Source of the DNA: a virus
Virus record (IMG/VR): IMGVR_UViG_3300034073_004613
Location: 1-41,834 of that record
Direction: 5' to 3' (one strand)
Length of the DNA stretch: 41,834 nt
Shown: positions 1,745-24,880 of the stretch, piece by piece
Numbering within the stretch: position 1 is the first letter of the stretch
Layout of the letters: each line of letters starts with the position of its first letter
Position numbers and translations under genes: made by a program
The notes under the pieces: generated by a model
Database searches by the model: none
What the model saw: only the letters and a program-made list of their open reading frames with translations
Told to the model about the DNA's origin: nothing

Positions 1745-2374
1745 TTATTCTTCTGGAAGTTTTTCTTCTCCCTCTTCTTGTCCTTCCTCTTTCTCTTCTT
1801 GTCCTTCCTCTTTCTCTTCTTGTCCTTCCTCTTTCTCTTCTTGTCCTTCCTCTTTCTCTTCTTGTCCTTCCTCTTTCTCTTCTTGTCCTTGACCTTGTCC
1901 CTGTGGTTCTTCAAATTCTTCTTCTTTTTGTCCTTGGCCTTGAGTTTGTCCTTGGCCTTGAGTTTGTCCTTGACCTTGAGTTTGTCCTTGACCTTGAGTT
2001 TGTCCTTGAGCTTGTGGTTGAGTTTCCGCTTGAGCTTGTGGTTGAGTTTCTGTTTGAACTTGAGTTTGACCTTGTCCTTGTGTCTGAGTCTGACCACCCA
2101 TTATCGCACCTCCTGGAATTTTCTCAACATCTAAGAAATTCATATTAATATACTTAACAATTTCTTCAGCGATATCAACATCTCCAAAAAACTGACGAAG
2201 ATTCTTACCAGTTGTATCTTTAACTTTTTTAACATAAGCATTAATCAAAGATTGAGGAATATCAATCATAGTTTTAACCTTATATATGTCGTTTACTTGA
2301 AGAACTGATTCTTTGATAATCTCTTCTCTGTTCTTCTTAACACGATATTTTTCGAATGTTCTAATATGCTTCAT
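1745..2374 (-). CDS. Tagged protein with long TQGQGQ / EEKEEGQ repeat tail
   Basis: 209 aa. It starts with the tag-like MKHIRTFEKY, followed by a basic segment and an approximately 80-residue predicted helical domain (V-N-D-I-Y-K-V-K-T-M-I-D-I-P onwards). From about residue 93 the protein is low complexity: first Q/T/G/A repeats (TQGQGQ units), then acidic EEKEEGQ heptads to the C terminus. The reading frame, not its mirror frames, is supported by the tag, by the upstream AT box at 2400-2410 and by the downstream terminator. Highly acidic or glutamine-rich tails occur on DNA-mimicking and virion internal proteins, but nothing here shows a specific activity. The long ORFs in other frames are by-products of the repeats. 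Confidence 0.7.
   Translation of the reverse strand: MKHIRTFEKYRVKKNREEIIKESVLQVNDIYKVKTMIDIPQSLINAYVKKVKDTTGKNLRQFFGDVDIAEEIVKYINMNFLDVEKIPGGAIMGGQTQTQGQGQTQVQTETQPQAQAETQPQAQGQTQGQGQTQGQGQTQGQGQTQGQGQKEEEFEEPQGQGQGQEEKEEGQEEKEEGQEEKEEGQEEKEEGQEEKEEGQEEGEEKLPEE
1777..1890. repeat. 21-bp tandem repeat (about 5 copies) inside the coding region
   Basis: The string CTTGTCCTT recurs at 1777, 1798, 1819, 1840, 1861 and 1882, a strict 21-base period. The unit encodes the acidic heptad EEKEEGQ on the minus strand. Near-identical DNA copies imply recent slippage or unequal exchange, so copy number probably varies between relatives. Confidence 0.9.
1927..2064. repeat. 18-bp tandem repeat, then a 24-bp repeat, coding for Q/G-rich units
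   Basis: Five 18-base units beginning TTTGTCCTTG follow each other from 1927 to 2016 and encode TQGQGQ-type hexapeptides on the minus strand. A related unit of 24 bases then repeats about twice to 2064. Together with the 21-bp array this gives three repeat registers in one gene. Confidence 0.85.
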
Positions 2375-3470: not shown

Positions 3471-3755
3471 ATGGCAACAATCACAAAAAAGAAGACACAG
3501 TCTAAAGCTGACGAAATACTCTCTAAGCCTTATCGATTGATACTTCACAATGATGATTATAATACCTTTGATTGGGTAATCACTTGTCTTATGAAGGTTT
3601 GTAACCATGAGTTCGAACAGGCCTCACAATGTGCACATATTGTCCATTATAAAGGCAAATGTGATGTGAAGTATGGAGACTTAGAAATCATTTCTGAAAT
3701 GAAGAATAAACTTGCTAGTGCTGGTCTTAGTGTTACTATGGAAGTAAACAGTTAA
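3471..3755 (+). CDS. clpS: ClpS-like N-degron adaptor
   Basis: 94 aa, full length for ClpS. After a basic, disordered N terminus (residues 1-19) comes the ClpS core. It has Y-R-L-I-L-H-N-D-D-Y-N-T (residues 21-32) with the N-D-D residues that line the N-degron pocket, then the helix L-M-K-V-C-N-H-E-F-E-Q-A, then A-H-I-V-H-Y-K-G-K with the pocket histidine. ClpS hands proteins with destabilising N-terminal residues to the ClpAP/ClpCP protease. A phage copy could redirect host proteolysis during infection, which is inference. The phrase F-D-W-V-I-T-C-L and the C-x-V-x-x-G pattern resemble Bacteroidetes ClpS, hinting at acquisition from the host. Its stop codon overlaps that of the convergent terL within the bases TTAA. 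Confidence 0.9.
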   Translation: MATITKKKTQSKADEILSKPYRLILHNDDYNTFDWVITCLMKVCNHEFEQASQCAHIVHYKGKCDVKYGDLEIISEMKNKLASAGLSVTMEVNS

Positions 3756-5890
3756 ATGTTTTTACCAAACCAATCAATGTTTCTTGAGTTTGGATTTTTC
3801 CTTTGATTCTGTTTTCTCAATCTTAATACTTGTCCATAATCTAGTGATTCAACATGATCCATCTGATTAAGACAATTATTTACGTAACTTACAAAGTCTT
3901 TTGGTAAAAATTTATTAAACCACTCTTCCACCATCTCTTTATATTCATATTTTTGAATAATTGAAGTCATGTTGACTACGGTCATTACGGTGTCATCATG
4001 TCCAACATCGGCAGCATATCTTATGTTACCAGAGGATGTTATGTGTTTAACAAATGTGGTTATCTCTCTTATGTTCTCTTCATTTGTTATTATAATGCTT
4101 TTTGATTGTAGAAGACCTTGATAATCTTTGACTAACAGGTTTTTATTTTCCCCTACTTTAAGACCCATTTTTTCCTCGGTTGAGTCAATTCTGTGTTTGT
4201 ATCTAACAAACACAGAGGAACCATAGTTGTTTCTTCCTTCAAAAACATGTGGTAGTTCAGCAAAAAGAGCATTTCCATAGTTGTTTAACTCGACAACGAC
4301 TTTTACATTTTCAGGATTTAGATATTCAAATACTATCATATAAAGTAATTCAGCAAGCTGTTTAACCGAAACCAAATTACTTCTGTAAATGCCTATCTGT
4401 TCTAATCTAAAGAAATCAACTATAGAAGTATATGATAATTTTTGAATTTCTATTAATTCAGTTGGTTTTGGAGAAATCTTAAAAATGTTTATAACAGAGT
4501 AATCTTGACCTAATCCCTCGGATATATCGACCGAAATAACTACTTTGTAATCTTTTCTCCTAAGAGGTATGAATATCTCATCATCATCAATCCATTTTAA
4601 TTCGTTATAACTGAACTTAAGTCTTGAATCAAATTCTGGTATTTCTTCAAATAAAAAATTCTTTTTACCCTTTAATAATTCATCAATTATTGACTCACTT
4701 AATAATGATTTACTTGAATTGATAAATCTTAATCCATATTCTTGATTAAAGGCATCTTCTCCTCCTATATCTTTAATTGCTTCTTCTTTCCAAGTGGTCG
4801 TCTCCGCAATCATTCTTATAGGAACCTCATGTCCTTTTTTGTCAATGAATGTCATAGATTTAACCTCTTCATCCGAACACATCTCATTATTATAAACATA
4901 GATTATATCTTTTTGTATATCAATATTGTATATCATCTCAACTTTTGTTTTACCTTCCCATCTTTCTTTCATCAGTTGTAGAATGTCTTCTTTTGTTACT
5001 CCATGTTCATATAATTTATGATTATTTAATCTTATGTAAGTTAGGAATCTACCTGGTACTTGATACCAGTATACCCTCATTGGTTTATAGTTATTTTTTT
5101 GAGGATCACCATCAGGCCTTTCAGCATCGGTTAGTAATCTATGAAATAAATTCATACCATTTGGGGTTGATGTGATAATAATCTTAGAGTTTTGAACAGC
5201 TGATACAGTCGGAAATGCTGCCGTATAGTATGGTTCTATGATATTAGATGGGATGTGTGCAAACTCATCTAAATAAAGAACATCAATGGTAAAACCAATT
5301 GCTGGTGTTTTAGTTCTTGCTGATGTTTTTATTCTACATCCATTTTCAAATGTTAACGACTTTTGATTCCAGGTTTTTATACCAGGTTTGAGAAAGAAAG
5401 GAAGTAGTGAGTAGATTGACTTTATTTTATCTACAATTTCTATTGCTGTATCACCCTTATTTGCTACAATCATTATGTTCTTATCATTGTTAAATAAGAT
5501 GGTATGTAACATGAAAATTGATGATGATATAGTTTTACCAACCTGTCTTGACGCCATCAAGATATTAAATCTACTATTCATAAAATTATCAAGTATCTGT
5601 TTCTGATACTCTCTTAGTTTGATATTATTAATAGATCCATCTTCTGTTTTAACTTTACAATACTTCTCTGTGAAATAATGAACATCAAGTGCACATCTAA
5701 CATATTCTTGTTGTTCATCTGGTGTCATTTTAAATGTAACACCTGATCTTCTTAGACCGACTTCACTTTTTAGCCAAGGATTTTGAAATTTCTTTACAAC
5801 AACACCATCATTTATCTTGTCTGTTGCCTCATCTACTAATTTAGTAGTGAAAATCATTTGTTTTTCTATGGGTTGTTTACCAAAGGACAT
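3752..5890 (-). CDS. terL: Terminase large subunit (T4 gp17-type ATPase-nuclease)
   Basis: 712 aa. This is the motor that packages DNA into proheads and cuts the concatemer. The ATPase domain shows Walker A S-R-Q-V-G-K-T (residues 114-120), Walker B V-L-Y-L-D-E-F (204-210) and the coupling motif T-S-T-P-N-G (240-245). The RNase H-like nuclease domain shows acidic residues at D454 (I-S-V-D-I-S-E-G), E533 (V-V-V-E-L-N-N-Y-G-N) and D627 with D631/D632 (A-A-D-V-G-H-D-D). All key residues are present, so the enzyme should be active. The length is slightly above T4 gp17 (610 aa). The gene runs opposite to the possible small subunit and converges on clpS. Confidence 0.96.
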   Translation of the reverse strand: MSFGKQPIEKQMIFTTKLVDEATDKINDGVVVKKFQNPWLKSEVGLRRSGVTFKMTPDEQQEYVRCALDVHYFTEKYCKVKTEDGSINNIKLREYQKQILDNFMNSRFNILMASRQVGKTISSSIFMLHTILFNNDKNIMIVANKGDTAIEIVDKIKSIYSLLPFFLKPGIKTWNQKSLTFENGCRIKTSARTKTPAIGFTIDVLYLDEFAHIPSNIIEPYYTAAFPTVSAVQNSKIIITSTPNGMNLFHRLLTDAERPDGDPQKNNYKPMRVYWYQVPGRFLTYIRLNNHKLYEHGVTKEDILQLMKERWEGKTKVEMIYNIDIQKDIIYVYNNEMCSDEEVKSMTFIDKKGHEVPIRMIAETTTWKEEAIKDIGGEDAFNQEYGLRFINSSKSLLSESIIDELLKGKKNFLFEEIPEFDSRLKFSYNELKWIDDDEIFIPLRRKDYKVVISVDISEGLGQDYSVINIFKISPKPTELIEIQKLSYTSIVDFFRLEQIGIYRSNLVSVKQLAELLYMIVFEYLNPENVKVVVELNNYGNALFAELPHVFEGRNNYGSSVFVRYKHRIDSTEEKMGLKVGENKNLLVKDYQGLLQSKSIIITNEENIREITTFVKHITSSGNIRYAADVGHDDTVMTVVNMTSIIQKYEYKEMVEEWFNKFLPKDFVSYVNNCLNQMDHVESLDYGQVLRLRKQNQRKNPNSRNIDWFGKNI

Positions 5891-8684: not shown

Positions 8685-9116
8685 TTATTTGAAGTTTTTT
8701 AGAAAATTTAATTCATCTTTAGAAAGCGAATCTAAACCTGTTTCATTAATTTTATCAAGTATTTTATCGAGATCTAAAACTATTGAAACTACTTTTTTAG
8801 ATTTATCTTTTGATTTCTTATCTTTACTTTTTGGAGTTTTAATTGGTTTAATTTTCAAAAGTTTTTGAGCTTCTTTCTTTGTTATTGGACAATATTTTTC
8901 GCAGATATACATTTGTTCAGGTCTATCTTCATCTATTGCTGCAATAACCCAATCACCCGCTGATTCTACCCATATCTTTATTACTCCTTTATTTTTTAGT
9001 TCTAAAAGAGATTCTAATGAAAGAACATAGGAATCAGCTATGTTATTTAACTGTTGTTCATTGTGTGACTTGAGGTTTATACAAATCACCTTTTCGATGT
9101 TGAATTTGAGTGCCAT
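8685..9116 (-). CDS. Paralogue B: unknown N-terminal domain plus Bacteroidetes-type C-terminal module
   Basis: 143 aa. The N-terminal domain (residues about 5-85) is nearly the same as in the adjacent gene: K-V-I-C-I-N-L-K-S-H-N-E-x-Q-L, K-I-W-V-E-S-A-G-D-W, M-Y-I-C-E-K-Y-C-P-I-T-K-K-E. A lysine-rich linker follows, then the C-terminal block L-D-K-I-L-D-K-I-N-E-T-G-L-D-S-L-S-K-D-E-L. That ending resembles the short module (DUF6576-like) found at the C termini of many Flavobacteria proteins. Two conserved cysteines (C-E-K-Y-C) might bind a metal. Function unknown. Confidence 0.68.
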   Translation of the reverse strand: MALKFNIEKVICINLKSHNEQQLNNIADSYVLSLESLLELKNKGVIKIWVESAGDWVIAAIDEDRPEQMYICEKYCPITKKEAQKLLKIKPIKTPKSKDKKSKDKSKKVVSIVLDLDKILDKINETGLDSLSKDELNFLKNFK

Positions 9117-9119
9117 ATA

Positions 9120-9611
9120 TTATTTATAATTTTTAAGAAAATCTAATTCTTCTTTACATAAAGAAGACATACCTGATATATTTATTTTATCTAAAATTGC
9201 ATCTAATTCAAGTATAACTTTTACTTTAGATTTGATAACTGGTTTAGTATCTGTCTTTACAATATCACTAGCATTTTTAACAACTTTTGGAATATTATTT
9301 TCAACGATCTTTTGAGTTGGTTTTTTCAACTTAGGTGTAGAAACTGGTTTGATGTTTTTAACAGACTCTCTTTCTTTTTTAGTCATAGGACAAAATCTTT
9401 CACAGATATAAAAATCATCAGGATTTGAAGTCTCTAAGGCAGCTATGGCATAGTCACCACCTGGCTCAATCCATATTTTGTAAGTGCCTCTTTGTTTACT
9501 TCTAAGTAATGCATCATAAGAAAGACGATAAACTTCAGAGATACTTCTCAATTGGTCTTCGTTGTGAGATTTTAGATTGATACAGATAACTTTGTTTATG
9601 TTGAATTTCAT
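9120..9611 (-). CDS. Paralogue A: unknown N-terminal domain plus Bacteroidetes-type C-terminal module
   Basis: 163 aa, first gene of the tandem pair, with three bases between it and paralogue B. It shares the N-terminal K-V-I-C-I-N-L-K-S-H-N-E and C-E-R-F-C-P-M-T-K-K-E motifs and the C-terminal L-D-A-I-L-D-K-I-N-x-x-G-M-S-S-L block. The linker between them is longer and has diverged, as expected for a disordered spacer. The C-terminal module is one I associate with Flavobacteria, supporting the host inference. The upstream promoter looks like a host-type promoter and not the AT box, so this pair may be expressed early. Confidence 0.68.
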   Translation of the reverse strand: MKFNINKVICINLKSHNEDQLRSISEVYRLSYDALLRSKQRGTYKIWIEPGGDYAIAALETSNPDDFYICERFCPMTKKERESVKNIKPVSTPKLKKPTQKIVENNIPKVVKNASDIVKTDTKPVIKSKVKVILELDAILDKINISGMSSLCKEELDFLKNYK

Positions 9612-9767: not shown

Positions 9768-12700
9768 ATGAAGTATGTAAAGAAGAGAGATAGTTTCCTA
9801 ACGGGAATAAAAGAATATAAAGAAACCGACAGTTATAAAAACTTAGAACTAATACAGGAAGACGGTGGTCCCCTCCATAATGCTGTTGAATTTGGAGATT
9901 CTTGGGTGGGTAGATGGATCCATAATATAATGAGAGCTGCTAAAGAAAAAGTAGACAAAATGAGAATCGCTGGTCAAATCAGAAGGTTAAAAATGGCATT
10001 AGATGACATAATTCAGAATGATGAGGCTGTTAAAATGGAGATTATAAAAGTAAGTAAAAAGGATCCTGGTCAAGAGACAACAGATCCTCTTAAAGGAGAT
10101 GACCTACACGATAAGTTTCTAAAACTTCAATTGCATGTTTTTTTAGATGAATTAAATGCAGCTGTCGAGAAGGGACACAAAGTGAGTATTATAAAATCTC
10201 TTACTGATAATGCTATAGAAGAAGTAGAGAAAACTCCTGAGTTTGAGGGAAAGAAAGAATTATTGGAACAACTTAAAAAATTCAAAGAGTTCTTAAAAGA
10301 CTTTGATGATGATGAGGGTAAAGAAGATCCTGACTTCAAACAAGAAAAGGGAGAAGGAGACGATGATGAAGAGGGAGATGAAGAAGATGAAGAAAAAGAA
10401 AGTGGAGATAATGAAGCTAAAAAGCTCTTCACTATGATAGAATCTTTGAAGTATTTAGCTCTTATAATAGAAACATACAAAAGAGTTAAGATTGAGAGTA
10501 AGGCTACTCAAAAGGAAGTTTATACTTACATAACTAAACCTGGTGATACAGTTGAAAAGATTCAAAAAAGTCAAGAAATTAATAAAAAGAAATTACAAAT
10601 AGCAGATATTCGTAGCAAAAATGAAAAGACACTAAAAAAATATGCTAAAGATAATCAAACTTTGGCTCCTAACTTGAAATTAGTTATGGAAAATGTAGAA
10701 GTTCTTTTCGAGGATGAAGACTGTTTTTATATTTTGAATGGTGAAGATTATATAATTTTAGAAAAAGAAACATTCGGAACTGGTGGAAGCGCTGATAGAC
10801 AAACTATCAAAACTTCTAATCAGAAAGGTGAGCCATTAAAACAAGGAGAAGACCATTTGACTCAAGCTTTTGCTAAACTTAAAAAAGATATCGAAGTTTT
10901 AGAATCTGATAAAGAAAAGGGAATAGGTATAACTCCTAAGTTTATTAATGATATAGTGGCTGTTTATAAAGAGACTGAAAATAGAACTATAATTCGATCA
11001 TTATATTCTGAAATCAATAGGTATTTAGTAGGTGATAAAAAAGCTACTATACAGGAAAAAGATCCGCTTTACAAAGAAAGTATTGAAGTAATTAAAAACC
11101 TACCTAAAAGAGTAGTTGTTGCTGAGAAAATAGCAAGATTTACAAAAAGAGCTATTCAGTTTGATGGTGAGAATCTTTATGGGGGTCTTGGTGATTTAGG
11201 TAAAAATCTCAAAGGATACGTTGAGTCTATGAAAAAAATTATGACTTATAAAATTGGTGAATCTAAAGAAAAGGGAGAAACTAAGTTTAAAGTTGGTGAT
11301 TTAGTTACTTGGACTAATAAAGAAGGTAAAACAATCACTAAGAAAATTGAAAAAATTGAAAATGGTAAATATGTCTTTAAAAAAGAAAGTGGTGAAGAAT
11401 ATACCAAAAAAGAGGACACTTTGAAAAAGGCAGAGCCTAAAAAAGAAGAGGAACCTAAAAAAGAAGAAGAAGCAAAGAAAGAATCAAGACTATTAAGATA
11501 TGACAACTATTATAGACTTATAACAGAGGCTGACGATAAAGAGGGAGTTCTTTCTGAAGTTAGTAGAAAGATTTTAGAGTTTTGGAGAGCAAACGTAGAA
11601 GTAAAAGCATATATTTTAAATAAAGAAGAGTTTGAAAAACTATTAAAAGAATTAGAAGATGCTGAACTTAATCAAGAGGTAGAGATGCCGGTTTCCGAGG
11701 GTGATCCTAAGGCTGACAAATTGCCTGAACCTAAGAAAAAGAAAGTCAAGTTAGACGGTCTTGCATTTACTATCGATCCAGTTCTTCGTATTGTGAAGGC
11801 ATTCAACAAAGCTTATAAATTACATACTACAGAAGTTATTCCTTCTGGTAGAACAAGTGGTGCGGTGTCTAATAGAATCTTTAGACAGTATACCTCTCTC
11901 GGTAGTGGTAGTCCAGATAGTGCTGGTAAATCTGGTGGTCCTTATAGAAATAATGCTGTATTTAATAAGTGGGAAGAAGCTGTATTGGATGTAATGGGTG
12001 AGAGTAAATATCAAAAGATTTTTTCACCATCTACCGTTCTATTGAGAGGAGAAGATTTAGTGGAAAAGGCTGGTGCTAACTTAAGATTATTCATGTCAGA
12101 TCTTTTGGATGGCGATAAACTTTATAAAGGAAGTGGTAGTTCTGGTGAAAAAGGAGCTCAATCTCAATTTTTAGATAAGTATTTTGGTTGGAAAGGAGAT
12201 GATAAGGTTCTTTATGATGGTGGATCGAATGAGCAAAAAGAAACAGGTGCTGTAGCGACAGAAGTTGATAAAAAGACCAATGAACAAATTGTGTCATTTA
12301 CAAAAGATGATATCAAATTTACACAAGTTTCTGAGTTAGTTGGTACTATGTTCAAATTAGAAGATGCTGATGGTGATAAGTCTTATTATTTCTATATACA
12401 CGAGGTATCTGGTGATTATTTCTATGTGACTTATACTAGAGGTTATAAATTCTATCATGATTTGATTCATAAAGAAGGTAAATATGGATTTCCAGATCTT
12501 TCTAAAATAAAAGGTGATGGTAAAACACCTAATGATAGCTACAGTTCGGGTGATGGTGAGTGGGTTATTAGAGCAACAAAGATTGCGACTAGAAATTTTG
12601 ATACTAAGACTGGAAAATTGAAACCAGCGACTTATGAGTCTGTTTATATTAGAAAGAAGGATAAAAAGCCTTTTACAAATAAGCAGGATGAAGTTGAAAA

Positions 12701-12896
12701 GTCATCGGAAAAAGACAAATTAACAGCAAAGGCGGGTAAAATATTTATATTGTCAGTTAAAAAGGATAAAGATGATAAAGAACCTAAGTTTGCTACTATT
12801 GAGAAAAAAGATAATCTTAAGGAAAAAGGTATATTCCCCGCTATAAAGAACACTAAAGGTATTGGTGATAGCGATGTGATTTTCAAAATTCAATAA
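9768..12896 (+). CDS. Large tagged candidate internal/core virion protein with LysM-like segment
   Basis: 1042 aa, strongly charged and lysine/glutamate-rich. It begins with a divergent tag, MKYVKKRDSF, and an L-I-Q-E stretch at residues 28-31. Residues 175-220 are an extremely acidic stretch (D-D-D-E-E-G-D-E-E-D). Residues about 250-308 resemble a LysM peptidoglycan-binding unit (Y-I-T-K-P-G-D-T-V-E-K-I then L-A-P-N-L-K-L). Residues 506-555 contain an F-K-V-G-D-L-V-T-W segment like a small beta barrel. At 574-588 a second tag-like stretch, L-L-R-Y-D-N-Y-Y-R-L-I-T-E-A, could be a protease site. The C-terminal half looks globular. I infer a prohead core or packaged protein processed by the prohead protease. 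One base separates it from the next gene. Confidence 0.6.
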   Translation: MKYVKKRDSFLTGIKEYKETDSYKNLELIQEDGGPLHNAVEFGDSWVGRWIHNIMRAAKEKVDKMRIAGQIRRLKMALDDIIQNDEAVKMEIIKVSKKDPGQETTDPLKGDDLHDKFLKLQLHVFLDELNAAVEKGHKVSIIKSLTDNAIEEVEKTPEFEGKKELLEQLKKFKEFLKDFDDDEGKEDPDFKQEKGEGDDDEEGDEEDEEKESGDNEAKKLFTMIESLKYLALIIETYKRVKIESKATQKEVYTYITKPGDTVEKIQKSQEINKKKLQIADIRSKNEKTLKKYAKDNQTLAPNLKLVMENVEVLFEDEDCFYILNGEDYIILEKETFGTGGSADRQTIKTSNQKGEPLKQGEDHLTQAFAKLKKDIEVLESDKEKGIGITPKFINDIVAVYKETENRTIIRSLYSEINRYLVGDKKATIQEKDPLYKESIEVIKNLPKRVVVAEKIARFTKRAIQFDGENLYGGLGDLGKNLKGYVESMKKIMTYKIGESKEKGETKFKVGDLVTWTNKEGKTITKKIEKIENGKYVFKKESGEEYTKKEDTLKKAEPKKEEEPKKEEEAKKESRLLRYDNYYRLITEADDKEGVLSEVSRKILEFWRANVEVKAYILNKEEFEKLLKELEDAELNQEVEMPVSEGDPKADKLPEPKKKKVKLDGLAFTIDPVLRIVKAFNKAYKLHTTEVIPSGRTSGAVSNRIFRQYTSLGSGSPDSAGKSGGPYRNNAVFNKWEEAVLDVMGESKYQKIFSPSTVLLRGEDLVEKAGANLRLFMSDLLDGDKLYKGSGSSGEKGAQSQFLDKYFGWKGDDKVLYDGGSNEQKETGAVATEVDKKTNEQIVSFTKDDIKFTQVSELVGTMFKLEDADGDKSYYFYIHEVSGDYFYVTYTRGYKFYHDLIHKEGKYGFPDLSKIKGDGKTPNDSYSSGDGEWVIRATKIATRNFDTKTGKLKPATYESVYIRKKDKKPFTNKQDEVEKSSEKDKLTAKAGKIFILSVKKDKDDKEPKFATIEKKDNLKEKGIFPAIKNTKGIGDSDVIFKIQ

Positions 12897-12897
12897 T

Positions 12898-13452
12898 ATG
12901 AAACATTTACTAACTTTTGGTCTTTTTTTAGAAAAGGTGGATATTAAAGATACTGATCCAGCTCATATTAGACTTGCTAAAGACAAATTAAATTCAACTG
13001 AAGATTATTTGACTCAATACCCTAATTTAAAGGCAAAGATAGATAGTATCTATAAAGCTAATAAAGATAAACCTGAGTCAGAGGTTTATAAACAAGTTTT
13101 GGATTCTTTGGGTAAAGATGCTAAGTTAAGAAATCCCTTCGCTGTAACTTATGCTGAAGTAGCAAAATTAGAAATAGAAATTAAAAAAATGACAGATAGT
13201 ATTTTAGTTGATGATACTGGAATGAAATTATCTTCTCAAAATCTTTCATTGGCAACTTCTGAAGATACTAAGAAAAAAATGCAAACAGATTTGATTCAAA
13301 TGAAGAAAAATCTTGATACAAAAAAGAAAAAACTCGAAGATAGTTTAAAACAAGTAGATAAGTCAAAGCAGCAAGTAAATACTGAAATCACGAAAACACA
13401 GAAAGAAATTGCTGAGGCTTCTAAAAAATTAGCCGAAAAGGAGAAAAAATAG
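12898..13452 (+). CDS. Tagged lysine-rich coiled-coil protein, candidate internal/scaffold protein
   Basis: 184 aa. It starts MKHLLTFGLFLEK, a clear copy of the shared tag with F7 and F10 and an F-L-E stretch. The rest is helical and polar; residues about 95-184 form one long lysine-rich coiled coil ending A-E-K-E-K-K. The start lies one base after the stop of the 1042-aa gene, so the two are co-transcribed and probably coupled. T4 core and internal proteins are likewise small, basic and helical with a removable leader, which is the basis for the role proposed. No enzymatic motif is present. Confidence 0.65.
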   Translation: MKHLLTFGLFLEKVDIKDTDPAHIRLAKDKLNSTEDYLTQYPNLKAKIDSIYKANKDKPESEVYKQVLDSLGKDAKLRNPFAVTYAEVAKLEIEIKKMTDSILVDDTGMKLSSQNLSLATSEDTKKKMQTDLIQMKKNLDTKKKKLEDSLKQVDKSKQQVNTEITKTQKEIAEASKKLAEKEKK

Positions 13453-13513: not shown

Positions 13514-16500
13514 ATGGCAATTCAAATTGGAAAATACAAAAGACCAGGAATCTTCATAGAAGAATTTGACAATTCAGTTATCTCTTCTCCTATTGTAGAA
13601 GGAATAACTAACATGGTTATCGGGGTTTCTAAAAAGGGTCCTGTTAATACTCCTATTAGATTGACTACAACCGGAGATTTAGAAGCGGTTTTTGGTCAAC
13701 TTGACAGAGGGCTAGAAAGAAAAGGTTCTTATTTCCACAGAACTATTACTAAGATGTTGGAAACAAGTCCTATATTTGCTATCAATCTTTTATTAACAGA
13801 TGATACATTAGATGTGATTGAGTATAAATCTCTTTCATCATCTTCTGGATATATGAATGATATAAAAAGAGAAGGTCCTTATAGAAGATTTTTTGATACA
13901 ACTGGTTTCTGGAAGAGAGACACTGAGTCTTTTATCAATTTAACAAAAAACAACACTGGTTATACAGAGAGAGCATTCAATATAACAAATTTATCTGATA
14001 AGACTATTTCAGTTTTTATTATCAAGTCTCCTATTTCTGGTTTTGATAGAACGTTAATTGAATGGTATGGAACTATTGATAAAATGCCTCCTTATGTTAA
14101 TCAAAATGATTTTGCATCTGACTATTTAGTAGATGTGGTTGTTGTTGGTGGTGACTGGTCAAACTACCAAGAGCTAGCTGTTGATAACAGATGGAGTGCT
14201 TACTTCAACGCTTCTGGTTTGAGAAAAGACCAATTAAGAAATTTTGCCAATGATAGAAATGTTTCGCTTTTAGCTTATTATGAAGGTCTTTCTTTAATTC
14301 CTTATTTCAGAGATGGAAATGGAAGAAATATATTTATTGAGACTACAATTAATAGAGATACTGATAGAACTGGATTATTCTGTTCATTTAACACAGATTT
14401 AGTTGAAAAAGACTACTATACTGGTATGTTAGATTTACTTGGTAATACTATTGTTGATCAATCTGAAACTGATATAGATTTTCTTTCTTACAAAGAAACA
14501 ATCGCTGAGTCAGTTATGTTTGAGGCTGTTCCTCTAGATTTACCAGGTAATGTTACTGCTATGTTAAGTAGTGCAACATTTGGATATAATGGTGGTTATT
14601 CCTCACCAACAGGTCACGCTTTTGAATCAGCTCTTAGTAATCCACAAACATCTGGTGTATTAGTAAATGAGAATAATAGAACACCTTGGTTCGCTGAGGG
14701 TTATGTTCATAATGTTGAAAGAGCTTCTTCTGTGGCTTCTTCAACCTCTTCTATAACTGTTACTTATAATGTTTCAGCAGAAGCTTATTGTGTTATAGGT
14801 GATACATATATACCTGTTTCAGCGACAACTTCTCTAACAATTGATTCATTAGACTATCCTGTTTCTGCTTCAACTCAGGTTTATTTCTCAGCATTTGTTT
14901 TAGATGCATCTGGAGAAATTAGTGAAGTAAAAACAACAACTGCAAATACAAGACCAACTGTTGATCCAAGTGATATCGTTTTAGGATATGCTACATTTTC
15001 AGTTGCATCTGGTCAATTTGTAGGTAGTCCTTTTGTTAAAAATGTTAGTGTTAATACAAGTGGATTTAATGATTTCGTATTTGGAACAAATTCTGCAACT
15101 GATGATTTCTTTGTTACAAATTTAGGTAGTGGTTCTATTAAAATTGAATTTATTGGAACAAGTGCAAAAGCTTCTACCGCTAATTATGAGCAATATAGAA
15201 GAATTAAACAATTCAATAGAATGATTGATCTTATTGATAGTCCAAATAAAAATAAAATGAGTCTTTTATTAGGTCCTTCTTCTGGATATAGAAAGGTTAG
15301 TATGAGTACAATGACTATTTCAAATATCGTTACATCAAATGTTCTTAATAAATCCTTTACTATTAATACAGGACTTACTACAGCTGAGTTAGTTGATGTT
15401 CTACAGGGTTATCTTGTTTTCTATACAGAGGATAATGAAATGCTAATTGGTTCTTTAGGTATGGATACAACTGAACAAGTTCATGGTGGAACTTATGGTG
15501 TTGTTGGTAAGTATTCTAAATTTTATGGAAGATTTTTTGATGGTATTATTAGCACAAAAGATTTCTTTTATGATAATAGATTATATGTTTATTCAGATGG
15601 GGATGCTAATACAATAGCAACTCTTGGTAAATCAGTTAACATTACATTTGTTGATGGTGAGACTGTAACAAGTGCTACATCTTCTTACGCTGGTTATGAT
15701 TACATTGTATTCGAGTATGATTCTAGTAATTTTGATACACAAATAGAGTTAGAAACATTTGAACAACTTGTATTTCCGGATTCAGATTTGAATAAAGGTT
15801 CTTTTACAATAGTGACAAATACTGTTGAGCCTTTAGATTCTCCTTCGGCATTAGCTTCTAACTTGGGATTCGTTAATACTGCTACTCAGTTTTATTTCGC
15901 TTACCAAGTAAATGAAGAGGTAAACTATGAATATTTAACAGAAGTAACTACTGTTCAAGATTACTTAACTAAACATTACTTAAAAATGTATTTAGAGAAT
16001 AATGGTGATTTGAATGTTAGATTTACAGATGTTTTATTAGAATCAGATGAACCAGCAGACTTTGTTGCAAATGCTAAGTTTATGGTACAATCTGAAAAGA
16101 GTAATCTTAAACAAACAATCGAAGTTGAACTTCCATCTGGATATACTAGAGTTCCTAACAAAGTTTTGATAAATGGTACTCGTTATACTGAAGTAAAAGT
16201 AGGTGACTTCTTAGAAGCTTATGTTGATACAACATTACTTCAACCAGGAGAAGCTCCTAGAAAACTTACAAGAATTTTAAGTAAGAGACAATATGCGGGT
16301 GACCCAACTCTTACAGAAGTTACTTGTGATGCTAGAATTAACACTTATAGTTTTGATGGTGATTTACAAACTACTAGATTTGTATCAGTTGATCAATATG
16401 CTACTACTTATAAAGCAATATCACTTAAAGGATTTAGAATTAGACAAGCTTCTCTTCCTGATGGAACTGAAGAAAGACAAAATCAAATATTGAATCTTGT

Positions 16501-17455
16501 CGCTAAAGGAACTCCTTTATTCAAAGCGATTACAAATAAAGAGGCTATTGACTTCAGATATTTAATTGATTCTTTTGGATTAGGTTTAACTGAAAGATCT
16601 AAACAACAATTGGTTGACATTTGTGGTGATAGATTAGACGCATTTGGTTTCATCAATATGCCATCAATGAGACAATTCAAAAACTCAAGTGGTCCATCTT
16701 TCGTAAATGCTGAGGGTGTATTACAACTTGAATTTGTAGCTAAAGGTGGTGACCCAGAAAGTAATCCTCCATTCTTATATTCATTCGGTGATGGTGCAGG
16801 AAGCACTTGTGTAGGGTACTTTATGCCTTATGTGATTGGTAATGATAATGGTAGACCAGTTGAACTTCCACCAGCAATGCATGTGGCGACAACTTATATG
16901 AGAAAACATATCTCTAATGTTACATCTATCACACCTTGGACAATCGCAGCGGGTGTTACAAATGGTAGAGTTACTAATATTCCAAGTACTGAATTGGATT
17001 TCACACTTTCTGATATTGAATATATCAATCAGGCACAGATGAATCCTATAGTATTCAAAAGAAATAGAGGATATGTAATCGAGACTGAAAACACAGCTCA
17101 AACTCTTTATAGGTCAGCTCTTTCTTACATACATGTTAGAGAGGTGTTGATTGAACTTGAAAGAGAATTATCAAGAATGTTATTAGATTTCCAATGGAAA
17201 TTCAATACTCCTGATATCAGAGCTGAAATTAAGTTAAGAGCAGATGTAATCTGTGAAACTTATGTAAGTAAAAACGGTCTTTACAACTACTTCAACAAAA
17301 TGGATGAAGAAAACAATACAAATGAGATTATCGATAATCAAATCGGTGTTCTTGATACCTATGTGGAACCAATTAAGGGTATGGGTATTATTGTTAATAA
17401 CATTACCATCCTTAGAACTGGTGCTATCAGTGCGGGTGGATTCATCAATCCATAA
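13514..17455 (+). CDS. Tail sheath protein (T4 gp18-like, enlarged)
   Basis: 1313 aa, about twice T4 gp18 (659 aa). The N terminus (I-G-K-Y-K-R-P-G-I-F-I-E-E-F-D-N-S, then V-I-G-V-S-K-K-G-P-V-N-T-P) is the classic sheath start. The C terminus is also typical: N-T-A-Q-T-L-Y-R-S-A-L-S-Y-I-H-V-R-E, then F-N-T-P-D-I-R-A-E-I and the final strand I-V-N-N-I-T-I-L-R-T. The protein polymerises around the tail tube and contracts during infection. The extra length lies in the middle: about residues 395-560 are Ser/Thr/Val-rich and look like an Ig-like beta domain, and more beta-rich sequence follows to about 1000. These probably decorate the tail surface. A strong terminator follows the gene. Confidence 0.93.
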   Translation: MAIQIGKYKRPGIFIEEFDNSVISSPIVEGITNMVIGVSKKGPVNTPIRLTTTGDLEAVFGQLDRGLERKGSYFHRTITKMLETSPIFAINLLLTDDTLDVIEYKSLSSSSGYMNDIKREGPYRRFFDTTGFWKRDTESFINLTKNNTGYTERAFNITNLSDKTISVFIIKSPISGFDRTLIEWYGTIDKMPPYVNQNDFASDYLVDVVVVGGDWSNYQELAVDNRWSAYFNASGLRKDQLRNFANDRNVSLLAYYEGLSLIPYFRDGNGRNIFIETTINRDTDRTGLFCSFNTDLVEKDYYTGMLDLLGNTIVDQSETDIDFLSYKETIAESVMFEAVPLDLPGNVTAMLSSATFGYNGGYSSPTGHAFESALSNPQTSGVLVNENNRTPWFAEGYVHNVERASSVASSTSSITVTYNVSAEAYCVIGDTYIPVSATTSLTIDSLDYPVSASTQVYFSAFVLDASGEISEVKTTTANTRPTVDPSDIVLGYATFSVASGQFVGSPFVKNVSVNTSGFNDFVFGTNSATDDFFVTNLGSGSIKIEFIGTSAKASTANYEQYRRIKQFNRMIDLIDSPNKNKMSLLLGPSSGYRKVSMSTMTISNIVTSNVLNKSFTINTGLTTAELVDVLQGYLVFYTEDNEMLIGSLGMDTTEQVHGGTYGVVGKYSKFYGRFFDGIISTKDFFYDNRLYVYSDGDANTIATLGKSVNITFVDGETVTSATSSYAGYDYIVFEYDSSNFDTQIELETFEQLVFPDSDLNKGSFTIVTNTVEPLDSPSALASNLGFVNTATQFYFAYQVNEEVNYEYLTEVTTVQDYLTKHYLKMYLENNGDLNVRFTDVLLESDEPADFVANAKFMVQSEKSNLKQTIEVELPSGYTRVPNKVLINGTRYTEVKVGDFLEAYVDTTLLQPGEAPRKLTRILSKRQYAGDPTLTEVTCDARINTYSFDGDLQTTRFVSVDQYATTYKAISLKGFRIRQASLPDGTEERQNQILNLVAKGTPLFKAITNKEAIDFRYLIDSFGLGLTERSKQQLVDICGDRLDAFGFINMPSMRQFKNSSGPSFVNAEGVLQLEFVAKGGDPESNPPFLYSFGDGAGSTCVGYFMPYVIGNDNGRPVELPPAMHVATTYMRKHISNVTSITPWTIAAGVTNGRVTNIPSTELDFTLSDIEYINQAQMNPIVFKRNRGYVIETENTAQTLYRSALSYIHVREVLIELERELSRMLLDFQWKFNTPDIRAEIKLRADVICETYVSKNGLYNYFNKMDEENNTNEIIDNQIGVLDTYVEPIKGMGIIVNNITILRTGAISAGGFINP

Positions 17456-17552: not shown

Positions 17553-19259
17553 ATGAATTTTGAGATTTTTAAAAGTCCAGATCCTTCAGGAAGGTTATCA
17601 AAAGAATCTTTTATTTCTAATAATTATCCAGAAGAATATATTTATATTATAGACTTTTGTAGTAAAAATGGAATGAATGATTTACCATTCAAAGAAAAAG
17701 TTTATTTAAGTGTTAATAAAATTAACAGATTACCAGTTTGTAAAAATCCTAATTGTAGTAGTTTGGTTTCTTTTAGAAATTCTACATTGGGTTATCGAGA
17801 ATATTGTTCTACTAAATGTTTGAGCTCGGATCCGGATATTAAAAAAATAAAACAACAAAAATCTATACAAAAGTATGGCACAAACACACCCGCTCAATCT
17901 CAGGTTATCAAAAATAAAATTATTAAAACTAATTTAGAGAAATGGGGAGCTAATTCACCAATGTGTGATGATGGCGTTCGAAAAAAATCTAAAGAAACTC
18001 TAATTAAAAATTGGGGAGTTGACAATCCTTCAAAATCTGAAGAACTTATTGAAAAAAGAATTGAATCTTTTAAACTAAGTGATTTCAAACAAAACTTCAA
18101 AAAAACATCTATTGAGAAATATGGAGTAGAACATCCTTGGATGAATGAAGATATACACAATAAAACAATCGATTTCTTTTATCAAAACTATAGACAAAGA
18201 ATTGAATCAAAGATAGATGGTGATTATAAGTTTGTCGGATTTGCCAAAGGAACGTCTACCTATTTAAACTTCTATTGTAAAAAGTGCGAATCAGATTTTG
18301 ATATACTGACTTATCAGTTTTACTATCGAATTAATTCTAAGATAAGTATATGTACAAAGTGTTTCCCTATTTCTGAAAGTTCATCAGTATCTCAAATTGA
18401 ACTTTATAATTTTATTAAAGAGAATTATGATGGTGAAATACTTTTAAATACTAAAGATTTTATTAATCCTTATGAGATAGACATTTATTTGCCCGAACTT
18501 AATATAGGATTTGAATTTAATGGTGTTTGGTGGCACAGTAATAAATTCAAAAAACAGAATTATCATCAAAGTAAAATACAAATAGCTGAAGATAAAGGAA
18601 TAAAACTAGTAATGATTTGGGAAGATGATTGGCAAATTAAAAGAGAAATTTGTAAATCTTTTATTTTAAATAAATTAGGAAAAACAAAAAGTAGAATTTT
18701 CGCAAGAAAATGTTTAATACAAGAAGTCAATTATATGGAATCAAAAAAGTTCTTAGATGAGAACCATTTACAGGGAGATTGTAAGTCATCTATTAGAATT
18801 GGATTATTCTTCAATGATGAGATTGTTAGTCTAATGACTTTTTCAAAACTTAGATTACCTCTTCAAAGATTTGAAAAAAATAGAAATAGAAAAGATCATT
18901 TTGAATTAACAAGATTCTGTAATAGAATTGATAGTAATGTAATTGGGGGAGCTTCTAAAATGATTAAATATTTTATAGAAAAGAATAATCCAAAACAAAT
19001 AGAAACCTATTCTGATAATTTAATATCCTCTGGTCACTTATATGAGAAAATAGGATTCGAATATACACATACATCAAACCCTGGATATTGGTATGTTGTA
19101 AATGGAATAAGACAGCATAGGTTTAACTGGCGAAAACAAAAGTTAATTAAAATGGGACATGATCCAAGTAAATCAGAGGAGGAGATTATGAATGAATTAG
19201 GATATTGGAGAATATATAATGCTGGTAATAAAAAGTGGATACTAAATCTCGAAAAATAA
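17553..19259 (+). CDS. Free-standing homing endonuclease (VSR-like EDxHD type)
   Basis: 568 aa, modular. Residues 60-95 hold a cysteine-rich zinc finger (C-K-N-P-N-C ... Y-C-S-T-K-C). Residues 105-215 carry four DNA-binding repeats of the form K-Y-G-x-x-x-P / N-W-G-V-D-N-P, as in nuclease-associated modular domains. A C-x-x-C pair precedes the catalytic core at about 295-365: Y-E-I-D-I-Y-L-P-E-L, then F-E-F-N-G-V-W-W-H-S, then a lysine helix and M-I-W-E-D-D-W. This is the very-short-patch-repair-like fold used by I-Bth0305I-type homing enzymes. The C-terminal 190 residues look like a GNAT-type fold. It is inserted between the tail sheath and the gp26-like gene, flanked by its own promoter, and interrupts the structural block. 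A selfish element is the best reading. Confidence 0.87.
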   Translation: MNFEIFKSPDPSGRLSKESFISNNYPEEYIYIIDFCSKNGMNDLPFKEKVYLSVNKINRLPVCKNPNCSSLVSFRNSTLGYREYCSTKCLSSDPDIKKIKQQKSIQKYGTNTPAQSQVIKNKIIKTNLEKWGANSPMCDDGVRKKSKETLIKNWGVDNPSKSEELIEKRIESFKLSDFKQNFKKTSIEKYGVEHPWMNEDIHNKTIDFFYQNYRQRIESKIDGDYKFVGFAKGTSTYLNFYCKKCESDFDILTYQFYYRINSKISICTKCFPISESSSVSQIELYNFIKENYDGEILLNTKDFINPYEIDIYLPELNIGFEFNGVWWHSNKFKKQNYHQSKIQIAEDKGIKLVMIWEDDWQIKREICKSFILNKLGKTKSRIFARKCLIQEVNYMESKKFLDENHLQGDCKSSIRIGLFFNDEIVSLMTFSKLRLPLQRFEKNRNRKDHFELTRFCNRIDSNVIGGASKMIKYFIEKNNPKQIETYSDNLISSGHLYEKIGFEYTHTSNPGYWYVVNGIRQHRFNWRKQKLIKMGHDPSKSEEEIMNELGYWRIYNAGNKKWILNLEK

Positions 19260-21690: not shown

Positions 21691-22830
21691 ATGAGTAAAA
21701 TTTACATGATCGGAGATAGTCACATTGGACTTGGATTTCCAAATAGCGTAGATAAATGGTTTAAAGTTCATAAAGAGTATTTTAGTGAATTTTTGATACC
21801 TTTATTAAAAAGAGAAGTTAAATCGGGTGATATAATTGTTCATTTGGGTGATTTGTTCGACAATAGAAATGTGATTCCTATCAATTTACTTAACTATGGA
21901 ATGGATATTGTAGAAGAAATATCTAAAATTGCACCATTTCATATTATAGTTGGTAATCATGATCTTTGGTCTAAAAGTGCAAGTGAAGTTAATAGTATTC
22001 GTCCATTCAAATGGATTCCAAATGTTTTTGTACATGATACTGTTACAAAGATAGATTATAATGGTTTGAAACTTTTATTGATGCCTTATGTTGAGAAGAG
22101 AGTCGAACAGATTAAATGGATACAAGATAATAGAGATTGTCACTATCTTTTTTGCCACTCTGATTTAAATGGTGCTAAAATGCATTTAACATCTGTTGCT
22201 CATAAAAATCCTGATAAAATTGATGTCGAGGAGTTTTCAGCATTTAAAAAGGTTTACAGTGGTCATATTCACATTGTCTCTGATAACAGTCAGAAAAACT
22301 TCAAATTTGTTGGTTCCATTTTTCAAATGGATAGAAATGACACCGGAGACCAAAAAGGTATTTTTGTTTTAGATACTGATACCGGTGAAGAAACATTCTT
22401 CCCAAATAAGATATCTCCTATTTTTAAGAAATTTAGAGTTGTTAAAGAAGAAGATGTGGATAGATTAGATGAGATAAAAGATACCAAAGACTATGTTGAC
22501 TTACAAATTTCTAATAATCTTTTAATTAGTAACAGAAAGCTTCGTAGAAAACTTGAAGTGATGTTAGAAAAAGGTAACTTTGCCTCTGTTGAATATATTG
22601 ATGATATTACAAAAGAGTTAGTTGATGGTGAAGAAGTGAATGAATCTTCAACAGTCGAAGTTGATGAGAATGGAATTGAAATCTCAGTTCAATTAGAATA
22701 TGAAGACTATATAAAAGAGTATATTCTTAAACAGAAATACGACAATGATAAATTTAAATCAGGTGTTATTTCTGAATTTGATGAAGTGATAAAAATTTAC
22801 ACTGACAATTACAAGTCTTCAACAGATTAA
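21691..22830 (+). CDS. SbcD/Mre11-type recombination nuclease subunit (T4 gp47-like)
   Basis: 379 aa. All metallophosphoesterase motifs are present: G-D-S-H (8-11), G-D-L-F-D (53-57), G-N-H-D (88-91), C-H-S-D with H156, and G-H-I-H (191-194). Together they bind two metal ions. T4 gp47 pairs with the gp46 ATPase to resect DNA ends for recombination-dependent replication and host DNA breakdown. The C-terminal 130 residues are acidic and helical, as in gp47 homologues, where they contact gp46. No gp46 gene lies in this window. The final four bases overlap the stop of the convergent P-loop gene. Confidence 0.9.
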   Translation: MSKIYMIGDSHIGLGFPNSVDKWFKVHKEYFSEFLIPLLKREVKSGDIIVHLGDLFDNRNVIPINLLNYGMDIVEEISKIAPFHIIVGNHDLWSKSASEVNSIRPFKWIPNVFVHDTVTKIDYNGLKLLLMPYVEKRVEQIKWIQDNRDCHYLFCHSDLNGAKMHLTSVAHKNPDKIDVEEFSAFKKVYSGHIHIVSDNSQKNFKFVGSIFQMDRNDTGDQKGIFVLDTDTGEETFFPNKISPIFKKFRVVKEEDVDRLDEIKDTKDYVDLQISNNLLISNRKLRRKLEVMLEKGNFASVEYIDDITKELVDGEEVNESSTVEVDENGIEISVQLEYEDYIKEYILKQKYDNDKFKSGVISEFDEVIKIYTDNYKSSTD

Positions 22831-23768
22831 AATTTCAATTCACTCACATCTTTTGCTCTACCTGTAGAAGGATCTCTTGAATTAATAATTTTATTCGGAT
22901 TGATTCCTGGTCTAGTTGTTAGATAAAAACCATTTTCTAATTCTCCCTTTACACCTAGTAGATTTAGTATTTCTTTAGGACTATTGTGCTTTGAACTAAT
23001 CAACATTTGCTCAACATTTTCAGCCGTATACATCTTATTATCTAAATCCGGTTTGTCTGTAGCTTGAAACCATCTGCAATACTGATACATTCCAGAATCC
23101 TCATTATTAACATCTATTCGTTCGGATTTATTTTCACTATTTACTCTACTATCAATATTTTTCAGATACCAATCTAATGGTGTGAATATTAGATAATCTT
23201 CGATATTACCAAACACTTTGAATTCTTTTATTCCTGTATCTACATCATCAAATACTATCGTTTTGGCTTTCGAAAAGTAAGCAACCCATGCCATTCCAAA
23301 TCTTCTACCATCATGGCCATCTTTTTGTTTGCTTTTTGCTTTTGGATCTGGATCAGTTAAATATCCTATATGTGGTCTTATTTCTTCATATTTCTTTTTT
23401 TCCTCATCAGAAGCAATTTCTTGCCATTTTTTGAAATCGTCTTTGTAGATTTCTATCAACCAAGGATTATCTTTAAAGCTATTAGCAGAAAGTTTGGCTA
23501 ATTCAGGCAAACCATTTTCTGATATCATCTCCATTAATTTTTGAAAAATTAAATCGTTGCCTTGAAAATTATCTGTACCTGTTAAGACCTTATCTGCCTC
23601 TGGATTTTGATACCAATGGACAATTTTAGTTGGCGCTAAACTTTTTGAATCGGTTGCTAAATAAGTTTTACCAGAAGCGCTTGGTCCAGATAGCAAAATA
23701 AACTTTTTACCTTCAACTCCTTCTTTTAGTAGTTTAATAAAACTTTCGTATAACTTTAAGTATTTCAT
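22827..23768 (-). CDS. Tagged P-loop NTPase
   Basis: 313 aa. The first 12 residues, MKYLKLYESFIK, are the clearest copy of the shared tag; L-Y-E-S could be a protease site. A Walker A motif follows at once (L-S-G-P-S-A-S-G-K-T, residues 26-35), and a Walker B-like strand T-I-V-F-D-D-V-D is at 170-177. The spacing of the motifs and lack of AAA+ second-region features suggest a small-molecule or nucleotide kinase-like or zeta-toxin-like P-loop fold, but I cannot name the substrate. An AT box (23792-23802) stands 23 bases before the ATG, giving the gene its own promoter at the end of the tagged island. It converges on the gp47-like gene with a four-base overlap. Confidence 0.72.
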   Translation of the reverse strand: MKYLKLYESFIKLLKEGVEGKKFILLSGPSASGKTYLATDSKSLAPTKIVHWYQNPEADKVLTGTDNFQGNDLIFQKLMEMISENGLPELAKLSANSFKDNPWLIEIYKDDFKKWQEIASDEEKKKYEEIRPHIGYLTDPDPKAKSKQKDGHDGRRFGMAWVAYFSKAKTIVFDDVDTGIKEFKVFGNIEDYLIFTPLDWYLKNIDSRVNSENKSERIDVNNEDSGMYQYCRWFQATDKPDLDNKMYTAENVEQMLISSKHNSPKEILNLLGVKGELENGFYLTTRPGINPNKIINSRDPSTGRAKDVSELKF

Positions 23769-23791
23769 AGTTTTGTTTTTTTTTTTCTGTA

Positions 23792-23802
23792 TTATATATT
23801 AA
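23792..23802 (-). promoter_or_regulatory. Late-promoter-like box TTAATATATAA
   Basis: Exact recurring AT box on the minus strand, 23 bases before the P-loop NTPase ATG. Confidence 0.5.
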
Positions 23803-23837
23803 TTTTTATCCTATAAATTTTTCTAAATATACCAAAC

Positions 23838-24557
23838 CTAACTTATTACTTCGATTCCTTCCTGGCCGAAGACGAAGACTTCTCGACCCCTGAAGATGAT
23901 AGCAGTGTCTTCCGAGATGCCCAATCCTATCTTCCCAGAAGTAAGACCGACTGCTATCTTCAGGCGAGAGATTCTACCTCTTTCTCTAAAATGAGTGTCT
24001 ACTACGATGTCTGGCAACATAGATAGACCCTTTTTCATGAGGGGTATACTTTTGCCACCTGCTATCATCTCTCCGGATAGGGCCATAGCACCAGCAGAAG
24101 TACCTACCACAGCCATTCCTTCTGAAAATCGTTGCTTCATTCTACTCAGGAAGGAAGTTCCCAGGTAACATTCAGTTATTCTCGATTGATCTCCTCCCAC
24201 GAAGAAAATTGTATCAGCAACATCTAGCTTTTTCAAGTTCTCTTCGGTGTCAACCTCGGAGGCAGTTGAAGTGTGTAGAAAAGTTGTGATGCATCCCAAT
24301 CGGTTAAAAATAGGGAGGTATTTTCTTTCAGCATCTTCTTTGTGGGCAGTGGCTGTAGTCACGACCAAAAGATTAGCAGAACCCAGTCCATTGATAACAA
24401 GCTCTAAGCACTTCTCGGATTCAGATCCACCCACTAGAGCAAATGTCTGACCATTTCTCAAGTACGGTGCGATCATGTCTTCGTACTTCAGGTTGAAGCT
24501 CTCCACCAACCAGTCACCAAAGTTTTTAATAAGCATTCTTGAGGTCTTTCTTTTCAT
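23838..24557 (-). CDS. Cyanophycinase-like peptidase (S51 family), compositionally foreign
   Basis: 239 aa. The S51 signatures are complete: L-V-G-G-S-E-S-E-K (residues 41-49), F-F-V-G-G-D-Q (118-124), the nucleophile elbow G-T-S-A-G-A (152-157, serine 154), and D-T-H-F-R-E-R-G-R (187-195). Later, G-L-G-I-S-E-D-T-A matches the conserved G-x-G-I-x-E-x-T-A. S51 serine peptidases cleave cyanophycin or aspartyl dipeptides. By eye the gene is near 50% G+C, while neighbours are near 25-30%, which points to recent transfer. An alternative start at 24536 (M8) would give M-L-I-K-N-F-G-D-W-L-V-E-S, which again has an aromatic-x-x-aromatic leader followed by V-E. The protein may therefore be tagged, though less clearly than its neighbours. 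Confidence 0.88.
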   Translation of the reverse strand: MKRKTSRMLIKNFGDWLVESFNLKYEDMIAPYLRNGQTFALVGGSESEKCLELVINGLGSANLLVVTTATAHKEDAERKYLPIFNRLGCITTFLHTSTASEVDTEENLKKLDVADTIFFVGGDQSRITECYLGTSFLSRMKQRFSEGMAVVGTSAGAMALSGEMIAGGKSIPLMKKGLSMLPDIVVDTHFRERGRISRLKIAVGLTSGKIGLGISEDTAIIFRGREVFVFGQEGIEVIS

Positions 24558-24580
24558 GTTCTATATCGTACCTTTTGTGT

Positions 24581-24619
24581 CTAAAACCTGATTGTGTCAA
24601 ATAGTTTTAAGTACCTCAT
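24581..24619 (-). pseudogene. 12-codon orphan tag ORF (remnant of a tagged gene)
   Basis: On the minus strand an ATG overlaps the stop of the cupin-like gene as ATGA, the usual coupled-start arrangement. It reads MRYLKLFDTIRF before TAG. MRYLKLFD is the same tag as on the hydrolase at 1682 (MRYLKLYED). The S51 peptidase begins 23 bases after this stop, in another frame. The simplest reading is that a tagged gene, or a tagged version of the peptidase, was broken when the GC-rich peptidase arrived. A functional mini-leader is the alternative. Confidence 0.6.
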
Positions 24620-24876
24620 AACTTCTGTAATTTTATTTTCAAATCACCGGTTCCTTTTATTAGTCTATGATAAATACCCATTGGTATAAAAACTTCTCCC
24701 CTTATTTGTTTAGGTAATTCATTATCAATTTGAATCATCCAATCTGTTTCACCGATAGATTCAATTATACGATTTTCAAAATCTCGATGCCACATAAATT
24801 CACCAGAATCTGTATCTTGTTTGAACTCTCTGATAAATGTATTATCACTTAATTTAGTTTCTTTAAATGGTAACAT
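24616..24876 (-). CDS. Small cupin-like phage protein
   Basis: 86 aa. The pattern F-M-W-H-R-D-F-E-N-R-I-I-E-S-I, D-W-M-I-Q-I-D-N-E-L-P and V-F-I-P-M-G-I-Y-H-R-L-I-K-G matches a short beta-barrel, cupin-like protein often found in marine T4-type phages. The two histidines (H30 in W-H-R-D and the later Y-H-R) are placed like cupin metal ligands. The reaction is unknown. It has no tag, unlike most of the island. It starts four bases after the metallopeptidase stop, and its own stop overlaps the orphan tag ORF, so it is part of the minus-strand operon. Confidence 0.65.
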   Translation of the reverse strand: MLPFKETKLSDNTFIREFKQDTDSGEFMWHRDFENRIIESIGETDWMIQIDNELPKQIRGEVFIPMGIYHRLIKGTGDLKIKLQKL

Positions 24877-24880
24877 ATTT

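Follow-up and report, generated by a model that had tools for sequence, protein, structure and literature searches.

The window analysed here is the whole 41,834-nt virus record IMGVR_UViG_3300034073_004613. Its open reading frames include one at 9768-12896 (+) that encodes a 1042-aa protein and lies between the large terminase and tail sheath genes (Table 1). No tRNA was found in the 41.8-kb window. Two paralogs lie in tandem at 8685-9611 (-), and the C-terminal part of each matches DUF6576 weakly, below the Pfam cut-off. A 568-aa ORF downstream of the tail sheath (17553-19259, +) was judged by eye to be a possible homing-endonuclease-like gene, and similar ORFs adjoin the sheath in LR756504 (L004) and LR756500 (L006). 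The 1381-aa product of the ORF at 35857-40002 (-) is rich in hydrophobic segments, matches no PHROG and may be a tape measure or membrane protein.

The tail sheath is closest to those of LR745206 (634.8 kb, 72%) and LR756502 (642.4 kb, 64%), all metagenomic huge phages; lower matches were obtained with 735-kb and 636-kb records, the Lak phages were more distant, and the terminase similarity agrees with that of the sheath. The 2020 huge-phage paper assigns its five genomes larger than 634 kb to the Mahaphage clade and predicts Bacteroidetes as their hosts (PMC7162821). The sheath and terminase similarities therefore identify the window as a fragment of the genome of a Mahaphage-type huge phage, an assignment made by similarity with no tree behind it. 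As a single tblastn query, the 1042-aa protein matched two phage records (LR756502 and LR745206, 32% identity), and a single-sequence search of IMG/VR returned no relatives. Profile searches of IMG/VR yielded 11 loci with an alignment of three sequences and 80 loci with an alignment of 11, giving 75 distinct homologs and 50 representatives after redundancy removal. These homologs are approximately 22-45% identical and occur in synteny: the tail sheath gene is present at 48 of 49 homolog loci, with terL on the opposite side in most of the loci that reach far enough. The terminase and sheath encoded at these loci mostly share 45-80% identity with their window counterparts, compared with approximately 22-45% for the 1042-aa homologs. 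A profile of the C-terminal domain had no match in LR756504, LR756501 or LR756500.

Table 1. Features of the 1042-aa protein and of the neighbouring genes; coordinates are those of the window, and cut sites are predictions.
Feature	Residues	Position	Strand	Basis
Large terminase gene (terL)		3752-5890	-	phrog_5989, E=8e-49
N-terminal propeptide ending I-Q-E31, predicted cut E31/D32	1-31	9768-9860	+	E31 conservation, aliphatic P3
N-terminal helical domain	32-180	9861-10307	+	Model, conservation; invariant N38, G48, R56
Very acidic, low-confidence linker	~178-218	10299-10421	+	Sequence; low pLDDT 189-213
LysM-like module	246-311	10503-10700	+	Family profile against PDB, beta-alpha-alpha-beta model
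Candidate third cut site	E315	10710-10712	+	Family form ESFIFE/A; degenerate here (ENVEVLFE/D)
Middle helical domain	360-495	10845-11252	+	pLDDT mostly ~80-90, low-confidence loop 425-436
Small SH3/Tudor-like beta barrel	504-559	11277-11444	+	VIA-align Z 5-6, rmsd ~2.5 A over ~55 residues
Lysine/glutamate-rich linker, start overlapping barrel end	549-572	11412-11483	+	Sequence; low pLDDT 557-594
Internal tag SRLLRYDNYYRLITE, predicted cut E587/A588	573-587	11484-11528	+	Profile, shuffle, conservation
Predicted C-terminal globular product	588-1042	11529-12893	+	Most conserved family part
Downstream gene, 184 aa, tagged MKHLLTFGLFLE, coiled-coil-like		12898-13452	+	tblastn: adjoins many homologs too
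Tail sheath gene		13514-17455	+	phrog_34521, E=3e-90

A structure model of the protein, based on 41 sequences in an alignment of the window and IMG/VR sequences only (mean pLDDT 69, pTM 0.36), consists of separate domains connected by low-confidence linkers, and the relative placement of the domains is not reliable. The helices of the N-terminal domain are modelled over residues 46-176, and its family consensus is GPFANDIxWGDSLLGRLINSxIRKA. It is followed by the very acidic segment already pointed out in a preliminary description of this sequence, while another low-confidence stretch, 310-360, lies downstream of the LysM-like module. The SH3/Tudor-like barrel, as modelled, is a generic fold. 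The C-terminal part, which the same description had considered globular, is indeed modelled as a globular domain over residues 597-1042 (mean pLDDT 74). For this domain, no PDB sequence match was found under E 1 and no PHROG match was found for the window sequence; Foldseek gave none under E 0.001 (best E 0.03 in the PDB and 0.06 among viral models), and the best VIA Z of 5.3 is not interpretable. The missing match is no evidence of a new fold. An ADP-ribosyltransferase, as in T4 Alt, was a candidate for this domain, and nothing in the analysis supports it. Pfam scans of the 1042-aa protein, as well as the families listed for 40 relatives, included no peptidase family.

The LysM-like segment, originally proposed at residues 250-308, stands on two lines of evidence, even though the window sequence scores below the Pfam cut-off (PF01476, E=0.1, 13 bits against 20.9; best family member, 1.7e-4). 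A profile of ten family segments searched against the PDB had LysM proteins as its best matches (4s3k, E=3.6e-5; 4b8v, LytE, SafA and MltD), and the structure prediction of the 240-310 region gave the beta-alpha-alpha-beta order of LysM (beta 249-255, helices 262-267 and 278-284, beta 304-311; block-mean pLDDT ~81-94), as read from predicted secondary structure with no superposition. LysM was absent among the VIA structural matches listed, a list filled by the SH3-like barrel. Because the module is present in 13 of the 50 representatives (about a quarter) and is replaced by other sequence elsewhere, it is an accessory part and only a candidate peptidoglycan binder.

The two glutamates after which cleavage had been suggested, E31 and E587, turned out to be the most conserved of the 115 glutamates of the protein (98% and 95% identical in 41 aligned sequences, ranks 19 and 27 of 1042 residues). 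The leader postulated at the N-terminus reads MKYVKKRDSFL...LELIQE31/D32, where the slash indicates the predicted cut. The second tag-like stretch, given as L-I-T-E/A within residues 574-588, is correct in letters and coordinates (KES-RLLRYDNYYRLITE587/A588), and the flexible lysine-rich linker described upstream of it is confirmed as rich in both lysine and glutamate. Both I29-Q-E31 and I585-T-E587 fit the L/I-x-E motif recognised by prohead proteases of the T4 gp21 type; T4 gp21 cuts after L/I-X-E (PMC9026906). The P3 position is aliphatic (I/L/V/M) in 36 of 40 family members (90%) at E31 and in 97% at E587, and P1' of the internal site is alanine in 29 of 39. The linker around E587 varies in length and sequence, and its other residues are mostly not conserved. 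E31 and E587 are both located within low-confidence linkers of the model, a position as expected for exposed cut sites. In addition, the internal tag contains two aromatic residues three positions apart, Y578 and Y581, and [YF]xx[FYW] is found in 36 of 39 members. The N-terminal leader (MKYLxxRxxFL...IxE) has the YxxF spacing beside the cut site in just 7 of 40 members; because this spacing is missing in most of them, the leader, divergent in form, may target differently, and the canonical tag of the protein is the internal one.

A third candidate site, which the preliminary description missed, was found in about half of the relatives. The canonical form ESFIFE/A, located after the LysM-like module or its replacement, is present in 21 of 45 relatives, compared with a null value of 4.5 (maximum 12 of 500). 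The site is real in about half of the family, but its counterpart in the window protein, E315, is not canonical.

We searched for the internal tag as [LIVM]xx[YF]xx[FYW]x0-4[ILVFY]xE within the 190 aa upstream of the C-domain core and found it in 43 of the 50 representatives, whereas shuffled segments contained it in 1.5 cases on average and in at most 7 over 1000 trials, a figure that is not a probability, given that related sequences are not independent. One more relative, L120, has an internal tag with a methionine at -2; L036 and L109 have none, and a few other relatives have a degenerate tag or have lost it. Internal tags of seven relatives, all from outside the genomes to be searched, were then used to derive a position score, with the tag of the window left out, and the score was applied to every ORF of LR756502, LR745206 and the window. 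Of the 29 hits of at least 14 bits, 24 were located at protein N-termini, a 96-fold enrichment per position, including MKLHRYNSFINE/S and MKHLSKYNEFSINE/G; one of the five internal hits is the internal tag of the LR756502 homolog. Because a profile made from internal tags only picks out N-termini in this manner, the internal and N-terminal tags are, in terms of sequence, one motif. An HMM from a MAFFT alignment of the tags was too blurred, and the gapped position score was used instead. An earlier position score, built from N-terminal tags, placed the internal tag of LR745206 high (11.5) and did not list that of the window, as it rewarded a K-H/Y start.

An N-terminal census of two complete relatives scored 202 of 946 ORFs in one and 170 of 920 in the other as tag-like at the start, compared with approximately 41 and 44 after shuffling, that is, ~14-17% of the ORFs beyond the shuffled expectation; the ORFs are mechanical calls, and the counts are rough. 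For the window, the census gave 10 of 38 ORFs against 1.5 shuffled, one of the 10 being the sheath, a probable false positive. The Y/F-xx-F...I-x-E motif is also present at the propeptide junction of the Gp23-type major capsid protein (EYAEFHQINE/NA; Pfam Gp23, E=4e-28), whose propeptide region ends WMAEYAEFHQINE/NAY, where a cut would be expected. LR756502 encodes a head-maturation protease (phrog_207, E=6e-28). The protease is a single ORF with a long tail of about ten YSEYIAE-NLDKNI-type repeats, both in LR756502 (225272-227371) and in LR745206 (198546-200669), apparently a protease-scaffold fusion whose repeats bear the cut motif. The protease was also found in the contigs, which are fragments, of four of six IMG/VR relatives with a homolog; Peptidase_S77 matches, mostly weak, occur in all five huge phages searched. 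It is not in the window, itself a fragment. In the T4 IPIII capsid-targeting sequence (CTS), residues 4 and 7 act mainly in targeting and residues 8 and 10 in processing (PMC9026906), and the internal tag of most members keeps both kinds of residues, the aromatic pair and the I-x-E end. The aromatic pair could serve targeting, protease recognition or both, roles that sequence does not separate, since the capsid site and the scaffold repeats have the pair too.

Based on these results, we propose, with a probability of about 0.68, that the 1042-aa protein is a head-internal precursor of a T4-related huge phage that is cut at E31 and E587 into cargo pieces. The earlier suggestion of a processed polyprotein, which the conservation of the cut sites and the identity of the tags support, is likely overall. 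The precursor would enter the scaffolding core of the prohead by means of T4 CTS-type tags; a gp21-type maturation protease would then remove the leader by cutting after E31 and would cut within the internal tag after E587. At least two mature pieces would result. The first, residues 32-587, would comprise the helical domain, the acidic linker, the LysM-like module, the second helical domain, the SH3-like barrel and, at its C-terminal end, the spent tag; the second would comprise residues 588-1042. In approximately half of the relatives, the first piece would itself be divided at the third, short site, which follows the LysM-like module or its replacement. The pieces would be retained in the virion and ejected, and any function of theirs is putative. 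More tentatively, Mahaphage-type phages may use copies of their own capsid-targeting and cutting tag as separators of packaged modules, so that one gene delivers several cargo proteins in a fixed ratio to the head and then to the host; the tag would here imitate one of the YSEYIAE scaffold repeats.

Other readings of the same sites were considered. The cuts at E587 and E31 could release an N-terminal part of 587 residues that is degraded or expelled, with the C-terminal product alone staying in the head. Such a fate for the N-terminal part is suggested by SPN3US, for which the detected cuts, the protease's own excepted, all remove N-terminal propeptides, these being up to 254 residues long and cut at several sites in head proteins (PMC10052503); the C-domain is also the most conserved part of the family. 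Nevertheless, 587 residues is far longer than the SPN3US propeptides described there, and this region has several confidently modelled domains (helical, LysM-like and SH3-like) as well as the invariant N38, G48 and R56, which makes a discarded N-terminal part unlikely, if the most serious of the competitors. It is quite improbable that the protein is instead a component of the prohead core like T4 gp22 or gp67, chopped at its tags, with most of the fragments leaving the head. T4 core proteins are cut by gp21 into several fragments (PMC9026906), a like motif is repeated in the protease-scaffold fusion, and the 1042-aa protein has acidic and K/E-rich linkers; however, its 1042 residues hold just two strongly conserved sites (three in some relatives), placed between modelled domains, unlike the approximately ten closely spaced repeats of the scaffold.

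The internal tag could also be left uncut, as a docking helix or as a mere trace of two tagged genes having fused. The ORF at LR756502 22663-23577 looks like two tagged units joined in frame, with an internal methionine, and some relatives have lost the tag; yet a relic would not maintain E587 at 95% and an aliphatic P3 at 97% in a fast-evolving linker among distant proteins, and we regard this explanation as highly improbable. Alternatively, tag-like N-termini could reflect the context of translation starts, the internal copy being an internal start that gives a separate protein, since MK-rich starts are common in these A+T-rich genomes. An ATG is near the tag in none of 44 family members, with GTG or TTG in seven, and the conserved glutamate and P3 residues lie 12-15 residues downstream. 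With no ATG at the 44 internal tags, internal initiation as a conserved mechanism is largely excluded, and this account of the tag is scarcely credible.

The internal tag is genuine and conserved, and it is best explained as a variant of the targeting and processing of T4-type head proteins. The likeness to the CTS of T4 IPI-III, cut by gp21, comprises a short tag with paired aromatics followed by I/L-x-E, a gp21-type protease in the relatives and the recurrence of the motif at the propeptide junction of a Gp23-type capsid protein. The T4 CTS occupies the N-terminus, where 10 residues are enough; in the window protein a complete copy is found within the chain, between domains, and is conserved at that position. 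The head-protein propeptides of phiKZ and SPN3US, cut by gp175 and gp245 respectively, likewise belong to large phages in which internal head proteins are processed after a glutamate, in some cases at several sites, by a protease of the gp21 type; however, the cuts detected there remove propeptides, no two-cargo precursor is described in the part of that literature available, and motif and sequences differ from those of the window protein. Polyvalent proteins such as P1 DdrB (PMC5512222) are also large multi-domain phage proteins, for which processing and delivery together with the genome have been proposed, but many have a peptidase domain of their own; none was detected here, where the predicted cutter is the prohead protease. 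Residues 246-311 resemble the LysM domain (PF01476) in sequence motif and in the predicted beta-alpha-alpha-beta fold; the window module differs in lying below the Pfam cut-off and in being restricted to about a quarter of the family. Both T4 and phiKZ-like phages are already known for capsid-targeting tags at protein N-termini and for cuts by the prohead protease. If a conserved internal tag does divide a single gene product into separate head proteins, this would resemble the polyprotein strategy of other viruses, and no description of an internal tag splitting a head polyprotein was found among the open-access papers searched. Moreover, the tag singles out proteins of huge phages that are candidates for head cargo and can be tested even though they have no known role.

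Double-tagged proteins plausibly arise by the fusion of neighbouring tagged genes, as is suggested, though no more than that, by two further examples with two tags each in LR756502. The 304-aa ORF at 22663-23577 has two complete tags, the second with its own methionine at approximately residue 125, and a 758-aa protein (91808-94084), DHH-phosphoesterase-like by eye, has an N-terminal tag and an internal tag at approximately residue 605. The LR745206 homolog of the latter (105634-107625) ends where the internal tag of LR756502 would correspond.

Other tagged genes are present in the window. A run of them at 22827-28004 (-) encodes a P-loop-like protein, a peptidase S51 family protein (Pfam E=3e-17) and an AAA-like ATPase, which are possible head cargo enzymes. 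A tagged protein encoded at 1745-2374 (-) has long GQGQ/EEKEEGQ repeats, and similar QGQGQ repeats occur in the linkers of several homologs of the 1042-aa protein (L138, L126 and L117).
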